Assembly (NCBI GenBank): GCA_937960435.1
Contig: CALGPN010000034.1
Span: 1 to 64,000, forward strand
Direction: 5' to 3'
Origin: an uncultured Desulfosoma sp.
Lineage (GTDB): Bacteria > Desulfobacterota > Syntrophobacteria > Syntrophobacterales > DSM-9756
Length of the DNA: 64,000 bases
Shown: positions 8,240-30,288 of the stretch, piece after piece
Layout of the letters: every line of letters starts with the position of its first letter
How positions within the stretch are numbered: position 1 is the first letter of the stretch
Program-made: the position numbers and the translations under genes
Notes under the pieces: generated by a model
What the model was told of the DNA's origin: nothing
The model's database searches: none
The model's input: the letters and a program-made list of their open reading frames with translations, nothing else

Positions 8240-8331
8240 TGGAGGGGGCAAGGGGAATCGAACCTCCTCCCGGTTGATGAGACCGGGCCGACGGGTTTGC
8301 AGCCCGCGGGGCGCCCAGCGCCGTTGCCCCC
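8240..8331 (-). tRNA. tRNA-Cys(GCA) with tRNA-Sec-like architecture (8/4 arm, long variable arm)
   Basis: The minus strand folds into a class II cloverleaf of 89 nt plus an encoded CCA (8242-8240). The acceptor stem is 8 bp (GGGGGCAA at 8331-8324 with TTGCCCCC at 8251-8244). The T arm is GGAGG/CCCC with a bulged A around loop TTCGATT. The D stem is GGCGC/GCGCC with a very short loop. The variable arm is a 6-bp stem (CCCGGT/ACCGGG) with a 7-nt loop. These are tRNA-Sec hallmarks. Yet the anticodon at 8300-8298 is GCA (Cys) and the discriminator base is U (8243), the identity elements of cysteinyl-tRNA synthetase, whereas tRNA-Sec has UCA and G73. Minor delta-proteobacterial cysteine tRNAs with a bulged 8/4 arm that mimic tRNA-Sec have been described. 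A gene caller may label it tRNA-Sec, tRNA-Cys or miss it. Confidence 0.9.
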
Positions 8332-20626: not shown

Positions 20627-20826
20627 CCGGCACCCTTAGGATAGTGAGGCGCCCTCCGTTGTCCACTCAAAAATCGAGCAGTGCCCGCCCGGGGCCCCAT
20701 TGGAAGGGCGCCGGGTCGTCGGGGAAAGATCGGCCGAGGTGGACAGGGACCGCGCGAAGTCTTAAGAGGAACGTGCGGGTAAGCATGTCGAATGTCTCCC
20801 GATTAGGGGAAAAGGAGCAGGAAGAG

Positions 20827-21333
20827 ATGACCGAAGGATTGCAAGTGAAACCGTGCATGAAGGTGACCATCGCTTTTCAACTGAAGACCGTCTCGCCGGA
20901 CGGGACGGTGAGGGAGGCGCCTCCCGGGTCCTGCACGTTCGTCTACGGCGTGGATGTGCAATACCCTTCTGTGGAAGCCGCGCTGATGAACAAGCGGGTG
21001 GGGGATCGGGTCTCGGTTTATGTGCCGCCGGAAGAGATTTTCGGTCCCTACGACCCGGAGCTGGTGCGGGAATTGCCCCGCAGCGACTACAAACCGGAGC
21101 GGCTCAAGGTCGGCAAGGTCTATCGAGAGATGCGCAATCGATCCCTGGTGGAATTCCTAGTGCGGGATCTTCGAGACGATGTCGTCGTCGCGGACTTCAA
21201 CCGGCCGGGGGCGGGCACCTATGCGGAATTCGACATCGAGGTCACCGACATTTGTGAAGCCTCTCAAAAAGAATTGCGGCCGTCGTGCGCCGGGGGCGGA
21301 CGGTTGGTGTTTTACCCCCAAAATTCGGCTTGA
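20827..21333 (+). CDS. FKBP-type peptidyl-prolyl cis-trans isomerase, SlyD-like
   Basis: A 168-residue protein of the SlyD-type FKBP family. The FKBP core starts KVTIAFQLKTVSPDGTV, and the insert-in-flap region PEEIFGPYDPELVRELPRSDY is SlyD-like. The SlyD metal-binding His-rich tail is absent. ATG 20827 is preferred because GGAGCAGGAAGAG precedes it; an in-frame ATG at 20785 lacks a good site. The attenuator-controlled operon starts right after its stop. Confidence 0.82.
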   Translation: MTEGLQVKPCMKVTIAFQLKTVSPDGTVREAPPGSCTFVYGVDVQYPSVEAALMNKRVGDRVSVYVPPEEIFGPYDPELVRELPRSDYKPERLKVGKVYREMRNRSLVEFLVRDLRDDVVVADFNRPGAGTYAEFDIEVTDICEASQKELRPSCAGGGRLVFYPQNSA

Positions 21334-21357
21334 CACATCGAGAAACGTCCCTGTAAA
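21330..21357 (+). promoter_or_regulatory. sigma-70-like promoter of the aromatic compound operon
   Basis: TTGACA at 21330-21335 and TGTAAA at 21352-21357 are separated by 16 nt. Transcription would start near 21364, giving a leader of about 250 nt before the first structural gene. The -35 is perfect and the -10 matches at 4 of 6 positions. Confidence 0.65.
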
Positions 21358-21411
21358 CAGGGTGCTGAAGCAATCCGCGGGCAGCGGAACCGACAGGGCC
21401 GGAGGGCGAGC

Positions 21412-21486
21412 GTGAAAAATCGGATCGAATGCTGCTATTCCTATTATTACGGCTACGGCTACCTGAGGCGGTCTGCCCGTCGATAA
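21412..21486 (+). CDS. tyrosine-rich leader peptide (attenuation)
   Basis: A 24-codon ORF starts with GTG, 5 nt after the strong ribosome binding site GGAGGG (21401-21406), and stops at TAA 21484-21486. Residues 7-17 read CCYSYYYGYGY: six Tyr codons in nine (21436-21462), preceded by two Cys codons. The peptide then reads LRRSARR. Such short, codon-biased ORFs before a terminator are the hallmark of ribosome-mediated attenuation (trp, his, phe, leu leaders). The Tyr run ends 6 nt before the antiterminator segment at 21468, so a ribosome stalled for Tyr-tRNA would leave that segment free, while one reaching the stop would cover it. The GTG frame is chosen over a Leu-rich shifted frame because it has both the ribosome binding site and the stop. 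Confidence 0.82.
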   Translation: MKNRIECCYSYYYGYGYLRRSARR

Positions 21487-21550
21487 TGTCGACGATCCGC
21501 CGAGTCGGCCGTGGGCAGACCGCAGAGCAGGGTTTGCCCACGGCTTTTTT
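21467..21550 (+). promoter_or_regulatory. attenuator: pause hairpin, antiterminator and terminator T1
   Basis: Three exclusive structures are visible. A pause hairpin pairs GGCGG (21467-21471) with CCGCC (21497-21501), with inner GTCGA/TCGAC (21479-21483 and 21489-21493). The antiterminator pairs GCGGTCTGCCC (21468-21478) with GGGCAGACCGC (21513-21523), a perfect 11-bp match. The terminator pairs GCCGTGGGCAGACC (21508-21521) with GGTTTGCCCACGGC (21531-21544), 14 bp with one G-U, followed by six T. Antiterminator and terminator share 21513-21521 and cannot form together. Confidence 0.85.
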
Positions 21551-21555
21551 GTTGG

Positions 21556-21586
21556 GGTCGTGGGATGTTCCCACGACCTTTTTTTT
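21556..21586 (+). terminator. second tandem intrinsic terminator T2 in the leader
   Basis: GGTCGTGGGA (21556-21565) pairs perfectly with TCCCACGACC (21569-21578) around a 3-nt loop and is followed by eight T. It lies only 26 nt before the ATG of the binding protein gene. The 3' arm of T1 (CCCACGGC, 21537-21544) can also pair with its 5' arm (GTCGTGGG, 21557-21564). Confidence 0.85.
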
Positions 21587-21612
21587 CACTCTGGGTGCAG
21601 GAGGAGGACGGC

Positions 21613-22794
21613 ATGAAGGCGAAGTCTCGATGGGTTGCAGGTGTGGTGGGCATGGCGATGGCGTTGTCCTGGGCCGCAGGCGTTTTCGCTCCGGCGCGCG
21701 CCCAAGCCGGCACGGAGCCCTACAAGGTGGGGGCGGTTTTTGCCATCACGGGAACAGCCTCTTTCCTCGGGGAACCGGAAAAGAAGACGGCTGAAATGAT
21801 CGCCGAGGAGATCAACGCCCAAGGGGGGATCAACGGCCATCCTTTGCAGCTGATCATCTACGATGACGAAAGCGATGCGACCAAGAGCACCTTGGCGGTC
21901 AAAAAACTTATCAAGACGGATCAAGTGCCGGTCATCATCGGGCCGACTCAGAGCGACGCCAGCTTGGCCGTGGCCCCCATCGCCGAAGAGGCGCAAGTGC
22001 CCCTCATTTCCTGCGCCGCCAGCTACAAGATCGTGGAACCCGTCTCGGAACGCCGCTGGGTCTTCAAAGTGGCCGGATCGGACAAGCACGTGGTGGGCAA
22101 GATGTACGACTACATGAAAGCCAAAGGCATCACCAAGATCGGCATCATGACGGCTTCCACGGGATTCGGGGCCAGCGGCCGTGAGGAGCTCTTGCGTCTC
22201 GCCCCCGAATATGGCATCACCGTGCTCGCCGACGAACGCTACGGCCCCAAAGACACGGACCTCACCGCCCAGCTGACCAAGATGCGGGAAGCCAAGGTGG
22301 AAGCCATCGTCAATTGGTCCGTCGGGCCGACTCAGGTGCTGGCCGTCAAGGCGTGGCGGGACCTTAAGATGGACAACATCCCGCTGTACCAGAGCCATGG
22401 TTTCGGCAGTCGGAAAAACATCGAGCTGGCCGGCGGGGCGGCGGAGGGCGTGTTGTTGCCCTTGGCGCGCGTCAATGTGGGGCCGCTCCTTCCCGACACG
22501 CAACCGCAAAAGAAGGTGATCATGGCCTACACTCAGGCCTATGAAAAGAAGTACAACGAGCCGGTCTCCTCTTTCGGCGGTCATGCCTGGGATTCCTTGC
22601 ACCTGGCCGTGGCGGCGCTCAAAGCCGTGGGACCGGACCCGGCGAAGATCCGGGACTTTCTGGAAAACACCAAGGGGTTCGTGGGGCAGCACGGCATCTT
22701 CAATTTCTCGCCCCAGGACCATAACGGGTTGAGCAAAGACGATTTGGAAATGGTCGTGGTGAAAAACGGCGATTGGGCTCTCGCCCCCTGGTAA
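21613..22794 (+). CDS. ABC transporter substrate-binding protein (LivJ/Peripla_BP_6 family), first gene of the attenuated operon
   Basis: A 393-residue periplasmic binding protein with a signal peptide ending near ARAQA. The mature part starts YKVGAVFAITGTASFLGEPEKKTAEM, the Peripla_BP_6 pattern. IIGPTQSDASLAVAPIAEE and GFGASGREEL line the ligand cleft. The ATG at 21613 follows CAGGAGGAGG. By family it would bind a hydrophobic or aromatic amino acid or carboxylate. Its place behind a Tyr-codon attenuator and before phenylacetate-CoA ligase and iorAB suggests aromatic amino acids or arylacetates rather than branched-chain amino acids. That assignment is inference. Confidence 0.9.
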   Translation: MKAKSRWVAGVVGMAMALSWAAGVFAPARAQAGTEPYKVGAVFAITGTASFLGEPEKKTAEMIAEEINAQGGINGHPLQLIIYDDESDATKSTLAVKKLIKTDQVPVIIGPTQSDASLAVAPIAEEAQVPLISCAASYKIVEPVSERRWVFKVAGSDKHVVGKMYDYMKAKGITKIGIMTASTGFGASGREELLRLAPEYGITVLADERYGPKDTDLTAQLTKMREAKVEAIVNWSVGPTQVLAVKAWRDLKMDNIPLYQSHGFGSRKNIELAGGAAEGVLLPLARVNVGPLLPDTQPQKKVIMAYTQAYEKKYNEPVSSFGGHAWDSLHLAVAALKAVGPDPAKIRDFLENTKGFVGQHGIFNFSPQDHNGLSKDDLEMVVVKNGDWALAPW

Positions 22795-22892: not shown

Positions 22893-23795
22893 ATGGCGGA
22901 TATTTTTCACGGCGCGGCGTGGCTCCAATACGCCCTAGGCGGTTTGACCATCGGCGCCATCTACGCCCTTGTGGCCCTCGGCTACAACATCATTTACAAC
23001 GTGACGGAAATCATCAATTTCGCCCAAGGCGAATTCGTCATGTTGGGGGGGTTGTTCGGGGTTTTCTATTACCAAACCTGCGGACTGCCCCTCGGGCCGG
23101 CGTTGCTCGCAGCCGTGGCGACGGTGGCCCTCGTGGGGCTGCTCCTGGAACGCTATGTCATCCGCCGGGCACGGCACGCCACGGTTCTTTCCATGATCAT
23201 CGTCACCATCGCCTTTTCCATTCTTCTCAAAGGCGGCGCCATGCTGGCCTGGGGAAAAGACCCTTACCGGCTGCCGCCCTTCAGCCGAAGCGGCGCGTTC
23301 TTGTGGCACGGCGTGGCCGTGCAACCCCAGGCGCTATGGGTCTTGGGGATCGGCGCCGTGGTCGTGGGCGCACTTACGGTGTTCTTCCGCACCTCCTTTT
23401 ACGGCAAGGCCATGTTGGCCTGCGCGGACAATGCCGACGCCGCCCGTCTGACGGGCATTCCCGTGCGGACCATGGTGCTCCTGTCCTTCGGGTTGAGCGC
23501 CGCCGTGGGGGCTGTGGCCGGCGTGTCCATTTGTCCCATCACCTTGATGGAATACGACCGCGGTGCGCTTCTGGGGCTCAAAGGCTTCGGCGCGGCCGTG
23601 CTGGGCGGACTGGGCCAGTTCTACGGGGCCCTCGTGGCGGGCATCGTCCTGGGTTTGGCCGAGTCGTTCTGCGCCGGGTACGTCTCCTCAGGGTACAAGG
23701 ACGCCGTCGCCCTCGTTCTTCTGATGCTGGCCTTGTTCTTCAAGCCGGAGGGCCTTTTCGGGAGTAAAGAAGCCGCCGGGCTCAAGAGGTTCTAG
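22893..23795 (+). CDS. ABC transporter permease, LivH-like
   Basis: A 300-residue inner-membrane permease. The LivH motif GAIYALVALGYNIIYNVTEIINFAQGEF is split over residues 21-48, and the loop GLGQFYGALVAGI near residue 245 marks the ATPase-coupling region. It lies 98 nt after the binding protein gene and 5 nt before livM. It is clearly diverged from the LivH encoded at 14766, so the two transporters are not a recent duplication. Confidence 0.92.
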   Translation: MADIFHGAAWLQYALGGLTIGAIYALVALGYNIIYNVTEIINFAQGEFVMLGGLFGVFYYQTCGLPLGPALLAAVATVALVGLLLERYVIRRARHATVLSMIIVTIAFSILLKGGAMLAWGKDPYRLPPFSRSGAFLWHGVAVQPQALWVLGIGAVVVGALTVFFRTSFYGKAMLACADNADAARLTGIPVRTMVLLSFGLSAAVGAVAGVSICPITLMEYDRGALLGLKGFGAAVLGGLGQFYGALVAGIVLGLAESFCAGYVSSGYKDAVALVLLMLALFFKPEGLFGSKEAAGLKRF

Positions 23796-23800
23796 GGGTC

Positions 23801-24784
23801 ATGAGTTCGCGAGAAAAGACGGCTTTTGTCGGCCTGACGGTTTTCCTGGCGGTGTTTCCGTGGGTGTCCGCCCTGTCCCGATCCTTCAGCCATTATGTGG
23901 ACGTCATGATTTTTGCCGGCATTTTCAGCCTGGTGACCATCGGGTTGAGCCTCCTGATGGGGTTTGCGGGGCAGATTTCCTTGGCGCAGGCCGCTTTTTT
24001 CGGTATCGGCGCTTACGGGTCGGGGATCCTCACCGGTCACTTCCACTGGAACCCGTGGGCGGCCATGCTCGCGGGGGTGTGCGTCGCCGCCGCGGTGGCC
24101 TGGGTCGTGGGGGTGCCGGCTTTGCGGCTGAAGGGCCATTACCTGGCCATGGCCACGTTGGGCTTCGGGGTCATTGTGCACATCGTCATGAACGAAGAAG
24201 TGGACTGGACCGGCGGTCCCTCGGGGCTCGGCGGCATCCCGGGGATTCGTCTGGCCGGGCGCAAAATTTCCGGTGACGCCGCCTGGTTTTATTTGGTTTG
24301 GGCCTTTGTGCTCGCCGCCTTTCTTTTCTCCCGCCACGTGCTCCATTCACGGGTGGGCCGGGCTTTGCGGGCCATTCACGACGATGAAAAAGCCGCCGAA
24401 GCCATGGGCGTCCCCGTCTCTTCCCTCAAGGTGCAGGTTTTCGTCTACAGCGCCGTTCTGGCCGCCGTCGCCGGAAGTCTCTACGCGCACTACGTCTCCT
24501 TTCTCTCCCCCGGCTCCTTCGACCTCATGTGGTCCATCCGGTTCGTGCTGATGGTCGTCTTCGGCGGCATGCAGAGCCTGTGGGGCGCCCTGGTCGGCAC
24601 GGTGCTTTTGACGTTTGTCGGCAACGAGTGGCTGCAGGTTTTTGCCGACTTCGAGATTTTGGTCTACGGCGGCATCCTTTTGGTCATGGCCCTTTTCGTC
24701 CCCCAAGGGCTGGTGGTTTGGATGGACGCTTTTTTCCGTCGAAGATCCCGCCTTCAGCCCACCCCTTCGGACGGCGGGTCGTGA
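23801..24784 (+). CDS. ABC transporter permease, LivM-like
   Basis: A 327-residue permease. The LivM motif SLLMGFAGQISLAQAAFFGIGAY, split near residues 50-70, and the C-terminal FGGMQSLWGALVG are present. The C-terminus is basic (FFRRRSRLQP). The start follows a short 5-nt gap after livH, and livG begins 3 nt after its stop. Confidence 0.92.
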   Translation: MSSREKTAFVGLTVFLAVFPWVSALSRSFSHYVDVMIFAGIFSLVTIGLSLLMGFAGQISLAQAAFFGIGAYGSGILTGHFHWNPWAAMLAGVCVAAAVAWVVGVPALRLKGHYLAMATLGFGVIVHIVMNEEVDWTGGPSGLGGIPGIRLAGRKISGDAAWFYLVWAFVLAAFLFSRHVLHSRVGRALRAIHDDEKAAEAMGVPVSSLKVQVFVYSAVLAAVAGSLYAHYVSFLSPGSFDLMWSIRFVLMVVFGGMQSLWGALVGTVLLTFVGNEWLQVFADFEILVYGGILLVMALFVPQGLVVWMDAFFRRRSRLQPTPSDGGS

Positions 24785-24787
24785 ACC

Positions 24788-25639
24788 ATGGGGGACCGTG
24801 CCGTGCCGGATGCCTCTCCCGTTCTGGAATTTCATGACGTGCGCATGCACTTCGGCGGCGTGACGGCCCTCAAAGGGGTTTCCTCACGGATCCCTAAGGG
24901 CATCATCCAATCCGTCATCGGGCCCAACGGCGCCGGCAAGACGACCCTGCTCAATTGCATCAGCGGCCTGCTGACCCCTTCTTCCGGGAGCGTGGTCTTC
25001 CGGGGGGAAGCCGTCCAGGGAAAACCCCCGCATGAGATCGCCCGGCGAGGTTTGTCCCGCACGTTCCAGCATGTGGCCCTTTTCCCGCGCATGAGCGTCT
25101 GGGAAAACGTCATGGTGGGGCGTCACGCGCGGACCCGCGCGGGTTTTTGGGCGGCGGGGTTTCGGCTGCCGTTCATGCGTGCGGAGGAACGCCGCATCCG
25201 GGAAGACGCCGAAAGGTGGCTGGAATTTGTGGGCCTGCATCCCGAAAAGGACCTGCCCGCCGGAGCCCTGCCTTTGGGCAAGCAGAAAATTCTGGAAATC
25301 GCCCGAGCTCTGGCCACCGACCCCGTCCTCATTCTCTTGGACGAGCCCGCAGGAGGCCTCAACACGAGAGAGACGGAGGAACTGGGGGATTTGCTGAAAA
25401 AGATCCAAGCCAAAGGGGTGACCGTCGTTCTTGTGGAACACGACATGAATCTGGTGATGGACATTTCGGACCGCGTGCTGGTGCTCCATTTCGGTCAGGT
25501 GCTCGCCTGCGGCTCCCCCTCGGAAATCAAAGACAACCCCGAGGTCATCCAGGCCTATCTGGGAGAGGACTGGGCAGAGGCCGGCGGCGGGCTCACCGGC
25601 AATTCTTTGTCAGGCGACAGGGAAGACACGCCGTGCTGA
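24788..25639 (+). CDS. ABC transporter ATPase, LivG-like
   Basis: A 283-residue ATPase: Walker A GPNGAGKTTLLN, the LivG phrase LSRTFQHVALFP, ALPLGKQKILEIARAL in place of the classical LSGGQ, Walker B LILLDEPAGGLNTRE and LVEHDMNLVMDISDRV. The C-terminal tail is about 20 residues longer than usual. It overlaps livF by 7 nt. Confidence 0.93.
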   Translation: MGDRAVPDASPVLEFHDVRMHFGGVTALKGVSSRIPKGIIQSVIGPNGAGKTTLLNCISGLLTPSSGSVVFRGEAVQGKPPHEIARRGLSRTFQHVALFPRMSVWENVMVGRHARTRAGFWAAGFRLPFMRAEERRIREDAERWLEFVGLHPEKDLPAGALPLGKQKILEIARALATDPVLILLDEPAGGLNTRETEELGDLLKKIQAKGVTVVLVEHDMNLVMDISDRVLVLHFGQVLACGSPSEIKDNPEVIQAYLGEDWAEAGGGLTGNSLSGDREDTPC

Positions 25640-26364
25640 CCGTAAAAAGTCTCCATGCCCATTACGGCAACATCCACGCGCTCAAAGGGGTGTCGCTGCA
25701 CGTGCGTTCCGGCGAAATCGTGGCCTTGATCGGCGCCAACGGCGCGGGCAAGACGACACTGGTCCACAGCATCTGCGGGCTCCTCAAACCCACCAAAGGA
25801 TCAATCCTTTTCGAAGACAACGATTTGACCCGGTTGCCTCCCGAGACCATTGTCCGCCGAGGCATCTCGCTGGTGCCCGAGGGGCGCCAAATTTTCGCCA
25901 CATTGAGCGTGGAAGCCAATCTGGAAATGGGAGCCTTCATCCATCGCAAGGATCGGGCGGGGCTGCGCCGGGACATGGACAGACTCTTGGAACGGTTTCC
26001 CGTGCTTCGCCAAAGGCGGCGCCAGCTGGCGGGGACGCTCAGCGGCGGCGAACAACAGATGCTCGCCATCTGCCGGGCCCTGATGGCCAGGCCTCGGTTT
26101 CTTCTTCTCGATGAGCCTTCCATGGGGCTGGCCCCCTTGATTGTGCGGGAAATCTTCGACATTATCCAAGAGCTGCGAGGGGAGGGGCGCACCATCCTGC
26201 TCATCGAACAGAACGCCCGCGCGGCTTTGCAAATTGCGGACCGGGGTTACGTCCTGGAAACCGGCAAGATCGTGCTCCAAGGCGAAGGCCGCGAACTCTT
26301 GGCCCATCGCGAAGTCCAGAGGGCCTATCTGGGCAAGGGGGCCAAACCCATCTGGGATGCTTAA
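25633..26364 (+). CDS. ABC transporter ATPase, LivF-like
   Basis: A 243-residue ATPase: Walker A GANGAGKTT, GISLVPEGRQIFATLSV, signature LSGGEQQML, Walker B LLLDEPSMGLAP and LIEQNARAAL. The start is GTG at 25633, overlapping the livG stop. The frame is open far upstream inside livG, which is a shadow. It completes the five-gene transporter; phenylacetate-CoA ligase begins 53 nt later. Confidence 0.93.
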   Translation: MLTVKSLHAHYGNIHALKGVSLHVRSGEIVALIGANGAGKTTLVHSICGLLKPTKGSILFEDNDLTRLPPETIVRRGISLVPEGRQIFATLSVEANLEMGAFIHRKDRAGLRRDMDRLLERFPVLRQRRRQLAGTLSGGEQQMLAICRALMARPRFLLLDEPSMGLAPLIVREIFDIIQELRGEGRTILLIEQNARAALQIADRGYVLETGKIVLQGEGRELLAHREVQRAYLGKGAKPIWDA

Positions 26365-26417: not shown

Positions 26418-27743
26418 ATGAAACCGGAAGGGGTTTCGATTTGGGAACCGGACAAAGAATGCATGGGCGTCGAAGAGCTGCGGCAACTCCAGCTGGAGCG
26501 GCTCCAGGCGACCCTGAACCGGGTGGATCGCCACGTGGCCTTCTACCGCAAGATGTTCCGGGACATCGGCTTCGTGCCGGAAAACGACCTGGCGGACCTG
26601 GACGATCTCAAGAGGCTTCCCTTTACGACCCGAGACGACGTGAGCAACAGCTACCCTTATGAGATGTTTGCCGTCCCTTTGCGGGAGGTGGTCCGGGTCC
26701 ACTCGTCTTCCGGAACATCGGTCAACCCCAGGGTTGTGGGCTACACGAAGCGGGATCTCAAGAACTGGGCCCAGTTGGTGGCGCGCATCCTGGCCTCGGC
26801 GGGCCTGACCCACGACGACGTGATCCAGGTGACCTTCGCCTACGGATTGCTCACCGGGGGTCTCGGCATTCACTACGGCGCGGAACGGTTGGGCGCGTCG
26901 GTCCTCCCCACCTCCGTGGGTCGCACCGAGCGGCAGATCAAGATCATGCAGGATTTTCGCACCACCGCCCTTGTATGCACGCCGTCCTACGCCCTCATCA
27001 TTGCCGACAAGATGGACGAGCTGGGCGTGGACCCCAAGCGGCTGAGCCTGCGCCACGCCGTCTGCGCGGGAGAACCCTGGACGGAAGCCATGAGGCGGGA
27101 AATCCAGGAAAGACTTTTCGTCACGGCCACGGACAACTACGGCATCAGCGAAGTCATGGGCCCAGGCGTGGCGGGCGAATGTCTGGCGCAGCAGGGCATG
27201 CACGTCCAAGAAGACCACTTCCTCGTGGAGATCGTGGACCCCAAGACGGGCGCGCCGTGTGAGCCCGGCGAGCTGGGGGAACTGGTGATCACCACGCTGA
27301 CCAAAGAAGCCTTTCCGGTCATCCGCTACCGCACGGGCGACCTGGCCCGCCTTCTGCCGGAACCGTGTGTGTGCGGGCGCACTTTCCGGCGCATCTCGCG
27401 CATTGAAGGCCGATGCGACGATGTGGTGGTCATCAAAGGCATCAACATCATCCCGGAACGCATCGGGGACGTCCTGGAACAGGTCAAGGGGGAAAGGCCC
27501 GTTTACCAGGTGGTGGTCACCCGCCAAGGCAATCTGGACCAATTGGAAATTTGGATCGAAGTGACGGAAAGGCTCTTTTTCGACAAGATGCGGGAGCAGC
27601 GCACCCTCGTGGACGACATGCGCCAGAAGGTGGCCAATTTCATCGGCATCGTCCCTCGCATCAAGCTCGTGGAAAGAGGTTCTTTGGAACGGATCGACGG
27701 GAAAGTGAAACCCTTTGTGGATCATCGACGCACATCGCAATGA
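26418..27743 (+). CDS. paaK: phenylacetate-CoA ligase (arylacetate-CoA ligase, AMP-forming)
   Basis: A 441-residue PaaK-type adenylate-forming enzyme, about the usual 430-440. It activates phenylacetate or a relative to its CoA ester with ATP, or works in reverse. Visible motifs: the N-terminal QLQLERLQATLNR, the P-loop SSSGTSVNPRVVGYT, TFAYGLLTGGLGIHYG, YGISEVMGPGVAGEC, RYRTGDLARLL and the C-terminal RCDDVVVIKGINIIP. The substrate is inferred from iorAB next door, whose products are indoleacetyl-, phenylacetyl- or 4-hydroxyphenylacetyl-CoA. The gene lies between livF and iorA with short gaps on both sides. Confidence 0.93.
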   Translation: MKPEGVSIWEPDKECMGVEELRQLQLERLQATLNRVDRHVAFYRKMFRDIGFVPENDLADLDDLKRLPFTTRDDVSNSYPYEMFAVPLREVVRVHSSSGTSVNPRVVGYTKRDLKNWAQLVARILASAGLTHDDVIQVTFAYGLLTGGLGIHYGAERLGASVLPTSVGRTERQIKIMQDFRTTALVCTPSYALIIADKMDELGVDPKRLSLRHAVCAGEPWTEAMRREIQERLFVTATDNYGISEVMGPGVAGECLAQQGMHVQEDHFLVEIVDPKTGAPCEPGELGELVITTLTKEAFPVIRYRTGDLARLLPEPCVCGRTFRRISRIEGRCDDVVVIKGINIIPERIGDVLEQVKGERPVYQVVVTRQGNLDQLEIWIEVTERLFFDKMREQRTLVDDMRQKVANFIGIVPRIKLVERGSLERIDGKVKPFVDHRRTSQ

Positions 27744-27760
27744 CGGGGAGGACGGTCGAC

Positions 27761-29620
27761 ATGCATGAATTGCTCACCGGGACTCGGGGCGAAAAGAGAT
27801 TTCTTCTCGGAAACGAAGCCATTATCCGCGCGGCTCTGGAATCCGGGGTGCGGTTTGTGGCCGCCTACCCGGGAACGCCGTCTTCGGAGATCATTGACGG
27901 CTTCGCGGCCCTGGGCCCGGAAATCGGGGCCGAGGTGGAATATTCGGTCAACGAGAAGGTGTCCGTGGAAACGGCCTGCGCGGCGGCCCAGTGCGGGGTG
28001 CGCAGCCTCTGTTCCATGAAACACGTCGGATTGAATGTGGCGGCCGACGCCTTCATGACCCTGGCCTATGTGGGCGTCAAAGCCGGCATGGTCATCGTCT
28101 GCGCCGACGACCCATCGCTTCATTCCAGCCAAAACGAACAGGACAACCGCTATTACGCCAAAATGGCCGGAGTGCCCATGCTGGAACCGGCCACCCCCCA
28201 AGAAGCGAAGGACATGGTGCGGGCGGGTTACGAGTTGTCCGAGCGATACGGGATTCCCGTCCTGCTGCGCACCACCACCCGGGTCAACCATTGCCGCGGG
28301 CCGGTGTCCTTGGGCGAGATCCCTCAGGCGTCCCTGAAGGGATCTTTTACCAAAGACCCCATGAACCTGGTGGTGGTTCCCATGGTGGGGCGAAAACTGC
28401 ATCTGAAACTCCTGGAAAAGCTCTCGGCGCTCCAGGAAGAAGTGGAACGCAGCCCGTTCAACACGGTGGAGGGCACCGGCCCGTGGGGTATTGTCGCCAG
28501 CGGGGTTTCCGCCCTCTATGTGCAGGACGCGGTGGACGAACTGGGAATTGCCGACCGTGTGGGGATCCTCAAACTGGGCATGACCCATCCCGTGCCGGAA
28601 AGACTCATCGGCGACTTTTTGAGCCGCATGGATGCGGTGCTTGTGGTGGAAGAATTGGAGCCGTATCTGGAAGAGGCCGTTCGGGTGAGCGCCCAAAAAT
28701 GCGGGTTCCGGGGACGGATCGCCGGCAAAGAGTTCGTGCCTAGGGCCTTTGAGCTGGATACGGTCAAGGTCAAAGAGGCGCTCAGTCGGTTTTTCGGCGT
28801 TTCTTATGAGCCGCCCGAGATTTTCGCCGTGCCCGAAGATTTGCCCGCTCGACCGCCCAACCTGTGTCCCGGATGCCCCCATCGGGCGACGTTTTTCAGC
28901 GTAAGGGAGGTCTTCGGAGAGGAGGCGGTCTACCCTACGGACATCGGCTGCTATACGCTGGGGCTTCTGCCGCCTCTGCGGATGGCCGATTTTCTCATCT
29001 GCATGGGGTCCAGCGTGTCCACGGCCGGAGGGTTCAGCCGCGTGCTGGATCGGCCCGTTGTGGCCTTCATCGGGGATTCCACCTTTTTCCACAGCGGCAT
29101 CACGGGGCTGATCAACGCGGTGAGCCACGACCGGAAACTGCTTCTGGTGCTCCTGGATAACGGCACCACGGCCATGACCGGCCATCAGCCTCACCCCGGC
29201 GTGTGGCTTTCGCGTGACGGCAAACAACCGCCCAAGGTGGAACTGGAGACGCTGGTGCGGGGGTGCGGCGTGCAAAACGTCGCCGTGGTCAACCCTTTGC
29301 AGGTCAAAAAGACCCAACAGGTGCTCCAAGAGATGAAAGCCGCCATGAAAGACAGGGGAGTGTCGGTGCTCATCAGCCGTTCGCCATGCCCCTTGTTCGA
29401 ACGCCGAGTGCTCGGCACCAAACAGAAAGTGGTATTCCAGGTCGTGGGCGATTGCCGTCCGTGCCGGGACGACCTGGCCCGGCTGGGATGCACGGCCTTT
29501 GTGTGGACCCCGGACGATGCAGGGGAAGCCTGCGTGCGGATCAACGAAGTGCTCTGCGGGGGATGCTCCGTCTGTGCCCAGCTCTGTGACGGCATCAAAC
29601 CGAAAAAGCTCACCGCCTGA
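27761..29620 (+). CDS. iorA: indolepyruvate:ferredoxin oxidoreductase, alpha subunit
   Basis: A 619-residue thiamine diphosphate and Fe-S enzyme subunit, close to the usual 600-620. It interconverts aryl-2-oxoacids and aryl-acetyl-CoA with ferredoxin. N-terminal pyrimidine-binding part: NEAIIRAALESGVRF and YPGTPSSEI. C-terminal ThDP part: LCPGCPHRATF near residue 367, then FIGDSTFFHSGITGLINA and LDNGTTAMTGHQPHPG. It ends with a shortened Fe-S region, CRPCRDD and CGGCSVCAQLCDGIKP; a typical IorA has two complete CxxCxxC...C sets, and here the first set is reduced to two cysteines. ATG 27761 follows GGGGAGG; ATG 27740 overlaps the paaK stop. Confidence 0.94.
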   Translation: MHELLTGTRGEKRFLLGNEAIIRAALESGVRFVAAYPGTPSSEIIDGFAALGPEIGAEVEYSVNEKVSVETACAAAQCGVRSLCSMKHVGLNVAADAFMTLAYVGVKAGMVIVCADDPSLHSSQNEQDNRYYAKMAGVPMLEPATPQEAKDMVRAGYELSERYGIPVLLRTTTRVNHCRGPVSLGEIPQASLKGSFTKDPMNLVVVPMVGRKLHLKLLEKLSALQEEVERSPFNTVEGTGPWGIVASGVSALYVQDAVDELGIADRVGILKLGMTHPVPERLIGDFLSRMDAVLVVEELEPYLEEAVRVSAQKCGFRGRIAGKEFVPRAFELDTVKVKEALSRFFGVSYEPPEIFAVPEDLPARPPNLCPGCPHRATFFSVREVFGEEAVYPTDIGCYTLGLLPPLRMADFLICMGSSVSTAGGFSRVLDRPVVAFIGDSTFFHSGITGLINAVSHDRKLLLVLLDNGTTAMTGHQPHPGVWLSRDGKQPPKVELETLVRGCGVQNVAVVNPLQVKKTQQVLQEMKAAMKDRGVSVLISRSPCPLFERRVLGTKQKVVFQVVGDCRPCRDDLARLGCTAFVWTPDDAGEACVRINEVLCGGCSVCAQLCDGIKPKKLTA

Positions 29621-29658
29621 AAAAGCGTTCCAGGCACGAAGGCCCGAATTGTCGGGAG

Positions 29659-30288
29659 ATGGAGGACGATGTGGTGAAGACGAGCGAAAAAGCGCACCGA
29701 AACGGTGTGCGCCTTTTTTTTACCGGAGTCGGGGGACAGGGAACGCTCTTGGCCACTCGCCTTGTGGGGGAAGCGGCCCTGGCGGAAGGCTTGTCCGCGT
29801 TCATGAGTGAAATCCACGGCATGGCTCAGCGGGGCGGCGTGGTGGAATCGTCCGTCGTGGTCGGAAGGATTCATGCGCCCATTGTGGGTGAGGGCCAGGC
29901 GGATGTGTTGGTGGCCTTTGAGCCCCTAGAAGCGCTCAGGGCCTTGAACCGGTGCCATGCGCACACCAAAGCCGTGGTGAGCACCTCGCCCATCGTTCCG
30001 TTCACCGTGGCCGCGGGCCAAGGGACGTACCCGAACCTTGCCGATGTGCTCAAAACATTGAAAGAAAAGCTGGCGGGCGTCGTGGCCCTGGACGCGGAGG
30101 CCCTGGCCCGCGAGGCGGGTTCGGTGCGCGCCGCCAACATGGTGGTCATGGGGGCCGTGGCCGCCATGGAGGTCCTGCCGATCGGCAAGTCCACGTGGGA
30201 CGCCTGCCTAAAAAAACTCTTCCCGCCAAAGCTCTACGATCTCAACCAAAAAGCCTTCGACGCGGGTTACGCCAAGGGCCGGCTGTGA
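29659..30288 (+). CDS. iorB: indolepyruvate:ferredoxin oxidoreductase, beta subunit
   Basis: A 209-residue gamma-domain-type subunit, partner of IorA. FTGVGGQGTLLATRLVGEAAL near the N-terminus and SEIHGMAQRGGVVESSVVVG are the family signatures. The C-terminal part (PKLYDLNQKAFDAGYA) is typical. The ATG lies 38 nt after iorA. It is the last gene of the attenuated operon; no clear intrinsic terminator follows. Confidence 0.95.
   Translation: MEDDVVKTSEKAHRNGVRLFFTGVGGQGTLLATRLVGEAALAEGLSAFMSEIHGMAQRGGVVESSVVVGRIHAPIVGEGQADVLVAFEPLEALRALNRCHAHTKAVVSTSPIVPFTVAAGQGTYPNLADVLKTLKEKLAGVVALDAEALAREAGSVRAANMVVMGAVAAMEVLPIGKSTWDACLKKLFPPKLYDLNQKAFDAGYAKGRL

Follow-up and report, generated by a model that had tools for sequence, protein, structure and literature searches.

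Several transcription attenuators that read a leader peptide or sense tRNA are known in bacteria, and the closest in design to the leader described here is the his attenuator of Salmonella and E. coli. It works through a chain of mutually exclusive pairings among strands A-F, in which starvation leads to the pairings B:C and D:E, and plenty to the terminator E:F (PMC4046918). The proteobacterial trp, pheA and pheST attenuators likewise have a short open reading frame (ORF) with codons for the regulated amino acid and an antiterminator set against a terminator (PMC11802643). The published leader peptides that we found in the open literature read Trp, Phe or His, and tyrosine is the aromatic amino acid for which no leader-peptide attenuator is described there. 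The aroR leader of Corynebacterium glutamicum has the run Phe-Tyr-Phe ahead of aroF, and transcription is reported to be unaffected by Tyr availability (PMC11802643). Tyr is also given as a T-box-regulated case (PMC1262725), and the Tyr T-box leaders of the Firmicutes, which bind tRNA directly and have no leader peptide, act by antitermination responding to tRNA-Tyr charging. Tandem terminators with an antiterminator occur in the rimP-leader (Naville and Gautheret 2010, PMC2965389), for which the available part of that source describes no amino-acid leader peptide.

Here, we analyze a leader within a 64,000-nucleotide stretch of DNA from an uncultured Desulfosoma sp. (the window). It is probably a Tyr-specific ribosome-mediated transcription attenuator of a livKHMGF-paaK-iorAB operon, in which the pairings form a chain that links a pair of serial terminators. 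The whole leader is housed in the spacer between the end of an FKBP-type gene (20644-21333) and the livK ATG at 21613, and has the following parts:

21330..21357, plus strand: promoter-like TTGACA-N16-TGTAAA, read from the sequence (-35 TTGACA at 21330-21335, 16-nt spacer, -10 TGTAAA at 21352-21357), sharing nucleotides with the stop of the FKBP-type gene that precedes it
21401..21406, plus strand: Shine-Dalgarno GGAGGG of the leader ORF, read from the sequence, with similar ones in leaders L033-L035
21412..21486, plus strand: leader peptide ORF with GTG start, VKNRIECCYSYYYGYGYLRRSARR and stop, from its translation, shuffles and conserved Tyr-rich ORFs
21468..21478, plus strand: strand 2, the 5' arm of antiterminator 2:3, within the ORF just 5' of its stop, from the fold and comparative pairing
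21508..21523, plus strand: strand 3, partner of strand 2 (antiterminator) or of strand 4 (terminator 1), from the fold and comparative pairing
21531..21550, plus strand: strand 4 and six T (3' arm of terminator 1 at 21531-21544, T run at 21545-21550)
21537..21564, plus strand: relay hairpin 4:5, from the fold, the covariation of strands 4 and 5, and loci with no T run after hairpin 1
21555..21586, plus strand: terminator 2 (5:6) and T8, from a terminator scan, the fold and four pairs changed on both sides

A first-pass annotation had proposed the promoter, the GGAGGG and a GTG-started ORF of 24 codons with six Tyr codons in nine and a stop at 21484, all of which are confirmed in the sequence. 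The -10 element is weak (4 of 6 consensus positions) and the promoter is absent from the output of a sigma-70 consensus scan; TTGACA-N16-TGTAA recurs in four leaders of the same family (L031, L033, L034 and L035). The ORF extends from the GTG at 21412 to a TAA at 21484-21486, and its Tyr codons start at 21436, 21442, 21445, 21448, 21454 and 21460. After 1,500 rounds of dinucleotide shuffling of 21334-21612, no short ORF contained more than three Tyr per nine codons, against the six observed. The end of the last Tyr codon is separated from strand 2 by 5 nt – rather than 6 nt, as first noted – and the stop codon at 21484 is 6 nt 3' of that strand, a position that is similar in relatives.

Folding places the antiterminator and terminator 1 where they had been proposed. 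Antiterminator 2:3 is a perfect 11-bp pairing (21468-21478 with 21513-21523; -35.4 kcal/mol including an inner hairpin), and terminator 1 (3:4) has 14 bp, one of them G-U (21508-21521 with 21531-21544), followed by six T (-31.1 kcal/mol). The attenuator logic of the first-pass annotation is supported; its single terminator is not, as a second hairpin with T8 and the 4:5 pairing that links it to the first had been missed. Terminator 2 begins 4 nt past the first T run (21555-21565 with 21569-21579, T8 at 21579-21586; -20.0 kcal/mol), is the top-ranked terminator-like site within 19-33 kb in a terminator scan, and is retained in nearly all relatives. The relay pairing 4:5 (11 bp, 21537-21547 with 21554-21564; -17.2 kcal/mol) uses strand 4 and part of its T run, and is incompatible with both terminators.

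The leader RNA (a 201-nt segment) is 4.3 sd more stable than shuffles, and its predicted fold depends on which region is masked. With the Tyr region masked, 2:3 is predicted and then 2:3 with 4:5 (RNA ending at 21570), and with the stop region masked, 3:4 and then 3:4 with 5:6. Because 5:6 is still predicted at equilibrium in the complete RNA with a stalled ribosome, the relay must act during transcription, and such kinetic action is usual for attenuators. The leader fold offers no clear candidate for a strand 1 that would shield strand 2 in untranslated RNA; without translation, the predicted fold contains 2:3, where a his-type A:B pairing would give termination by default, and the untranslated leader may therefore read through.

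We propose that the attenuator gauges the supply of charged tRNA-Tyr. The proposal is built on an observed ORF, pairings, conservation and covariation, from which we infer stalling, termination, read-through and the kinetics of the relay. With ample Tyr, the ribosome would reach the stop codon and mask strand 2, such that 3:4 forms as terminator 1; polymerases escaping it would meet 5:6, which can form because strand 3 holds strand 4. With scarce Tyr, the ribosome would stall in the Tyr run and leave strand 2 free to pair with strand 3, and the freed strand 4 would pair with strand 5, blocking terminator 2 too and allowing the operon to be read. With a footprint of the usual size, a ribosome stalled anywhere from the first to the fourth or fifth Tyr codon would leave strand 2 free, and one stalled at the sixth would partly mask it. 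A single stalled ribosome could in this way govern both terminators through an exclusive chain, 2:3 and 4:5 versus 3:4 and 5:6. Release of terminator 1 alone would not express the operon, because terminator 2 follows in series.

The correspondence with the his attenuator is close in that 2:3, 4:5 and 5:6 correspond to his B:C, D:E and E:F (PMC4046918), and equivalents of B:C, C:D, D:E and E:F are all present in an exclusive chain. The livK leader differs in reading Tyr instead of His, in preceding a different operon, in having a T run of its own on the C:D-equivalent hairpin – and thus two terminators in series – and in having no clear A:B equivalent and no sequence relation by Rfam. It shares with the trp, pheA and pheST attenuators the short ORF of regulated-amino-acid codons and the choice between antiterminator and terminator, and differs from them in its Tyr codons, its transporter-paaK-ior operon, its second terminator and the 4:5 link. 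The aroR leader resembles it in placing a Tyr codon in a leader peptide 5' of an aromatic-pathway gene, but has only one, whereas the livK run is Tyr-dominated. The proposed response to tRNA-Tyr charging by antitermination is shared with the T-box leaders, but Rfam searches with the entire window and with the leader by itself gave no match at the gathering score to leader families or the T-box, and only two unrelated weak sRNA matches on the leader (E 0.13 and 2.2). The tandem terminators and antiterminator are shared with the rimP-leader, as far as the available part of its description goes, and the genes and phylum differ. The kind of attenuator is thus already known, and the novelty lies in terminator 2 and its 4:5 link to terminator 1; searches of the open-access literature turned up no description of Tyr leaders, deltaproteobacterial aromatic attenuators or tandem-terminator leaders of this build.

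The livK ortholog is present in 43 of 56 genomes of the class Syntrophobacteria, and 32 of 48 upstream regions of these orthologs contain a short ORF with at least four Tyr in nine codons (e.g. YYYYGYLRRSAL, YYCYYGYLRRSAP, YYLYIYFGRSVP, YYYYYYYY and YYYFFYYYNGEGSVH). Four families of the class keep the Tyr run, and operon synteny is kept in same-class relatives, including Syntrophobacteraceae and other Syntrophobacteria such as Desulfacinum. TAT and TAC exchange freely in the conserved runs (82:65), and it is therefore the amino acid and not the DNA that is conserved. The first-pass annotation had named hairpins kept without Tyr codons as an observation that would overturn its reading; relatives generally keep Tyr, and there is one clear case to the contrary (G003/L048, about 210 nt 5' of livK), in which the hairpins are kept and the core of the ORF MNWGRGGAMTCYFPGGTQWRPAR has only a single residue each of Tyr, Phe and Trp. 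Members of another family (f2) have livK copies whose leaders are rich in Phe or of mixed residues (FSGFCFYFFS, FYFYFYFFT), and in one instance NYYYYYYV. Genome G016 has an adjacent livK pair (L177), one copy after a Phe/Tyr leader (FYFYFYFF) and the other after the pure Tyr run NYYYYYYV, a possible recent switch of the residue read. No recognisable leader lies 5' of livK in G033 and G038, and the leader is absent from livK orthologs outside the class (Desulfobacterales, Geobacter).

The pairings were compared in an alignment of 21 leaders retrieved through gene homology, independently of RNA structure. The proportion of paired cells is 95.6% for 2:3 and 95.2% for 3:4, and 89.8% for 5:6 and 89.7% for 4:5, the latter two being lowered because one family is known to have its hairpin 2 misaligned. 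All four pairings show changes on both sides, with three pairs so changed in 2:3 and four in 5:6. The Tyr run, a stop just past strand 2, and the 2:3 and 3:4 pairings thus persist in related operons, the comparison that the first-pass annotation had proposed as its check, and its suggestion of ribosome-mediated Tyr attenuation gains comparative support from the Tyr run, the stop position and compensatory changes in both pairings. Four hallmarks of a leader-peptide attenuator are seen in the sequences: a short ORF with a Shine-Dalgarno sequence 5' of the operon, a codon run tied to the operon with its amino acid conserved (with the exception of G003), a stop placed such that a terminating ribosome would cover strand 2, and an antiterminator and intrinsic terminator that exclude each other and carry compensatory changes.

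A classical attenuator, in which terminator 1 is the sole regulated part and 5:6 an incidental or constitutive backup, would need only 2:3 and 3:4 for the textbook logic; tandem terminators are common, and the similarity of the arms could stem from local duplication. The two designs predict different covariation, in that a required 4:5 pairing should make strands 4 and 5 covary, and a hairpin 2 that is a mere copy should make strands 3 and 6 covary equally. The leaders' own 4:5 pairs are stronger than those with swapped partners (0 of 5,000 swaps). Over 154 leaders there are 24 mismatches in 4:5 and 49 in the control 3:6, with 10 in 3:4 and 17 in 5:6. Locus by locus, 4:5 is favoured over 3:6 by 37 to 17 (p = 0.009); the first set alone gives a non-significant 19 to 11 (p = 0.20) and an independent second set alone 18 to 6 (p = 0.023). 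Permutation among the 106 loci of the main core type, which controls for column make-up, predicts 26.7 (sd 1.4) mismatches in 4:5, and 17 are observed (0 of 20,000); for 3:6 the prediction is 38.9 (sd 1.7) and the observed number 37, which is non-significant. All these covariation statistics ignore phylogeny, with the 3:6 control lying on the same tree. Plain duplication as the source of the tandem arm likeness was rejected for this core type, where 4:5 covaries and 3:6 does not. The ATG core type has no variation of the kind needed for the 4:5 test, and an 8-nt core energy comparison of 4:5 with 3:6 was discarded because of unequally cut arms. In L093, L137, L149, L152 and similar loci a palindromic core (GCCATGG/CCATGGC) is present in both hairpins, such that any arm can pair with any other.

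At 10 of 169 loci, in several families, hairpin 1 has three or fewer T in the next 8 nt, and 4:5 is kept, as is terminator 2 with its T run (L056, L174, L090, L095, L101, L131, L139, L099, L120 and L146); hairpin 1 cannot terminate there, and the leader can act only through 4:5. Two of these, L056 and L174, are Tyr leaders of the livK operon itself. These loci with a T run after hairpin 2 only, the covariation of strands 4 and 5 without that of 3 and 6 – contrary to what duplication predicts – and the consideration that the operon would stay off behind an unregulated terminator as strong as this (-20.0 kcal/mol, T8) make the classical design unlikely. A search for the hairpin-core pattern gave 39 matches in both orientations versus 8 for the reversed pattern, and part of this enrichment may be generic, with the cores serving as a general terminator in this genome.

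A covariance model built from these leaders was used to search the genome and phylum, and identified three further clear leaders of like design elsewhere in this genome:

Trp-rich leader (FWWCWWWC) before a DAHP synthase, covariance-model match
Phe/Tyr/Trp leader (FYFYYGWYY) before a second DAHP synthase, covariance-model match
Phe-rich leader before another paaK, covariance-model match

The three sites are at about 55246 of contig C10 (L108/L072), about 4347 of C45 (L109/L073) and about 17151 of C6 (L110/L074) of this genome (G000). Short direct repeats of GACTTCACGATTTAC lie about 100-180 nt past the paaK leader (L110), ahead of the second paaK. The coded residue follows the pathway of the downstream genes in this genome, with Trp and Phe/Tyr/Trp before DAHP synthases and Phe before paaK. 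The model matches 234 of 395 genomes of the phylum at E <= 0.01, and 141 of 155 genomes of one other class at 1e-8; it favours the 3:4 and 5:6 consensus, such that those hairpins in its hits are not independent evidence, and 4:5 and 3:6 are outside the model. The leaders have runs of Phe, Tyr, Trp or mixtures and stand before genes for DAHP synthase, 2-amino-3,7-dideoxy-hept-6-ulosonate synthase, aminotransferases and other liv-type binding proteins. Throughout one other class, many leaders (within L268-L336) with a Phe-rich FFSFFGFF and tandem terminators precede another liv-type binding protein (KVGAAINxTGPASTWGQ). The livK leader had been rightly recognized and wrongly treated as a lone case, as Trp, Phe and mixed Phe/Tyr/Trp leaders are present in the genome and many more in the phylum; it is best read as one of four aromatic-amino-acid leaders in the genome, within a phylum-wide set.

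The operon has the order livK, livH, livM, livG, livF, paaK, iorA, iorB:

21613..22794, plus strand: livK-type substrate-binding protein (Peripla_BP_6), the first operon gene, from a family match
22893..26364, plus strand: livH, livM, livG and livF-type ABC transporter genes, from family matches and a conserved order, with livF inside ORF 25147-26364
26418..27743, plus strand: paaK-type arylacetate-CoA ligase (TIGR02155, 492.6 bits, under the cut-off of 646.3)
27413..30288, plus strand: iorA and iorB, indolepyruvate:ferredoxin oxidoreductase (iorA TIGR03336, 735.7 bits, above the cut-off; iorB just under its cut-offs)

Both paaK and iorB score below their NCBIfam cut-offs, and are therefore assigned to a type of enzyme and not to an exact substrate. 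The long iorA ORF overlaps the paaK 3' end at 27413-27743 and its family matches begin at residue 128; the true iorA start is probably near 27740. Elsewhere in the window, a selenocysteine tRNA gene (RF01852) lies at 8244-8331 on the minus strand.

The operon probably takes up and activates aryl acids. Since shortage of Tyr would turn it on, it probably serves Tyr supply: an aromatic compound (e.g. an arylacetate) would be taken up, activated by PaaK and reductively carboxylated by IorAB, giving an arylpyruvate, the Tyr precursor; both the substrate and the direction of the pathway are inferred. A biosynthetic role has been argued for indolepyruvate oxidoreductase (IOR) beside arylacetate-CoA ligase and compared with methanogens, and the enzyme is oxidative in amino-acid fermenters (PMC13285125). 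The latter would suit a catabolic operon, converting Tyr to 4-hydroxyphenylacetate for export, with the leader tuning it for some other reason. We regard this as improbable, as an attenuator that is on when Tyr is scarce makes no sense for catabolism, and other leaders of the same type in this genome stand before DAHP synthases.

That the operon handles aromatic compounds, and that the segment past the Tyr run is partly conserved (LRRSA, FGRSV, GEGSVH), would also fit a TnaC-like arrest peptide, whose nascent chain senses a small molecule (aryl acid or Tyr) and not charged tRNA. This is very unlikely, because the conserved segment is encoded by strand 2 and RNA pairing accounts for its conservation, and because the peptides otherwise vary freely and repeat Tyr, Phe or Trp according to the gene that follows, which fits codon reading. 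The shortness and GTG start of the ORF might suggest that the spacer is non-coding, its Tyr codons being due to chance and its terminators ordinary, but the shuffles speak against this and the conservation of frame, Tyr run and pairings already refutes it, leaving it a negligible probability.

With the Tyr-specific attenuator as our reading of the livK leader, the wider set probably represents a phylum-wide family of aromatic leader peptides in the Thermodesulfobacteriota/Desulfobacterota, in which one ribosome would control two serial terminators through a pairing domino (2:3 then 4:5, versus 3:4 then 5:6), hairpin 1 can become a pure switch, and the residue is re-coded for each operon (Tyr, Phe, Trp or mixtures), including the first mainly-Tyr leaders known. 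Two linked serial terminators vary the his chain in a natural way and make for a sharply testable design, and the phylum-wide set supplies reporters of regulation, each specific to its amino acids, for organisms in which genetics is little developed. Operons with paaK and iorAB are usually annotated as aromatic degradation; if the reading given here is right, those found here would instead serve Tyr supply, which bears on aryl-acid salvage by sulfate-reducing and syntrophic bacteria.
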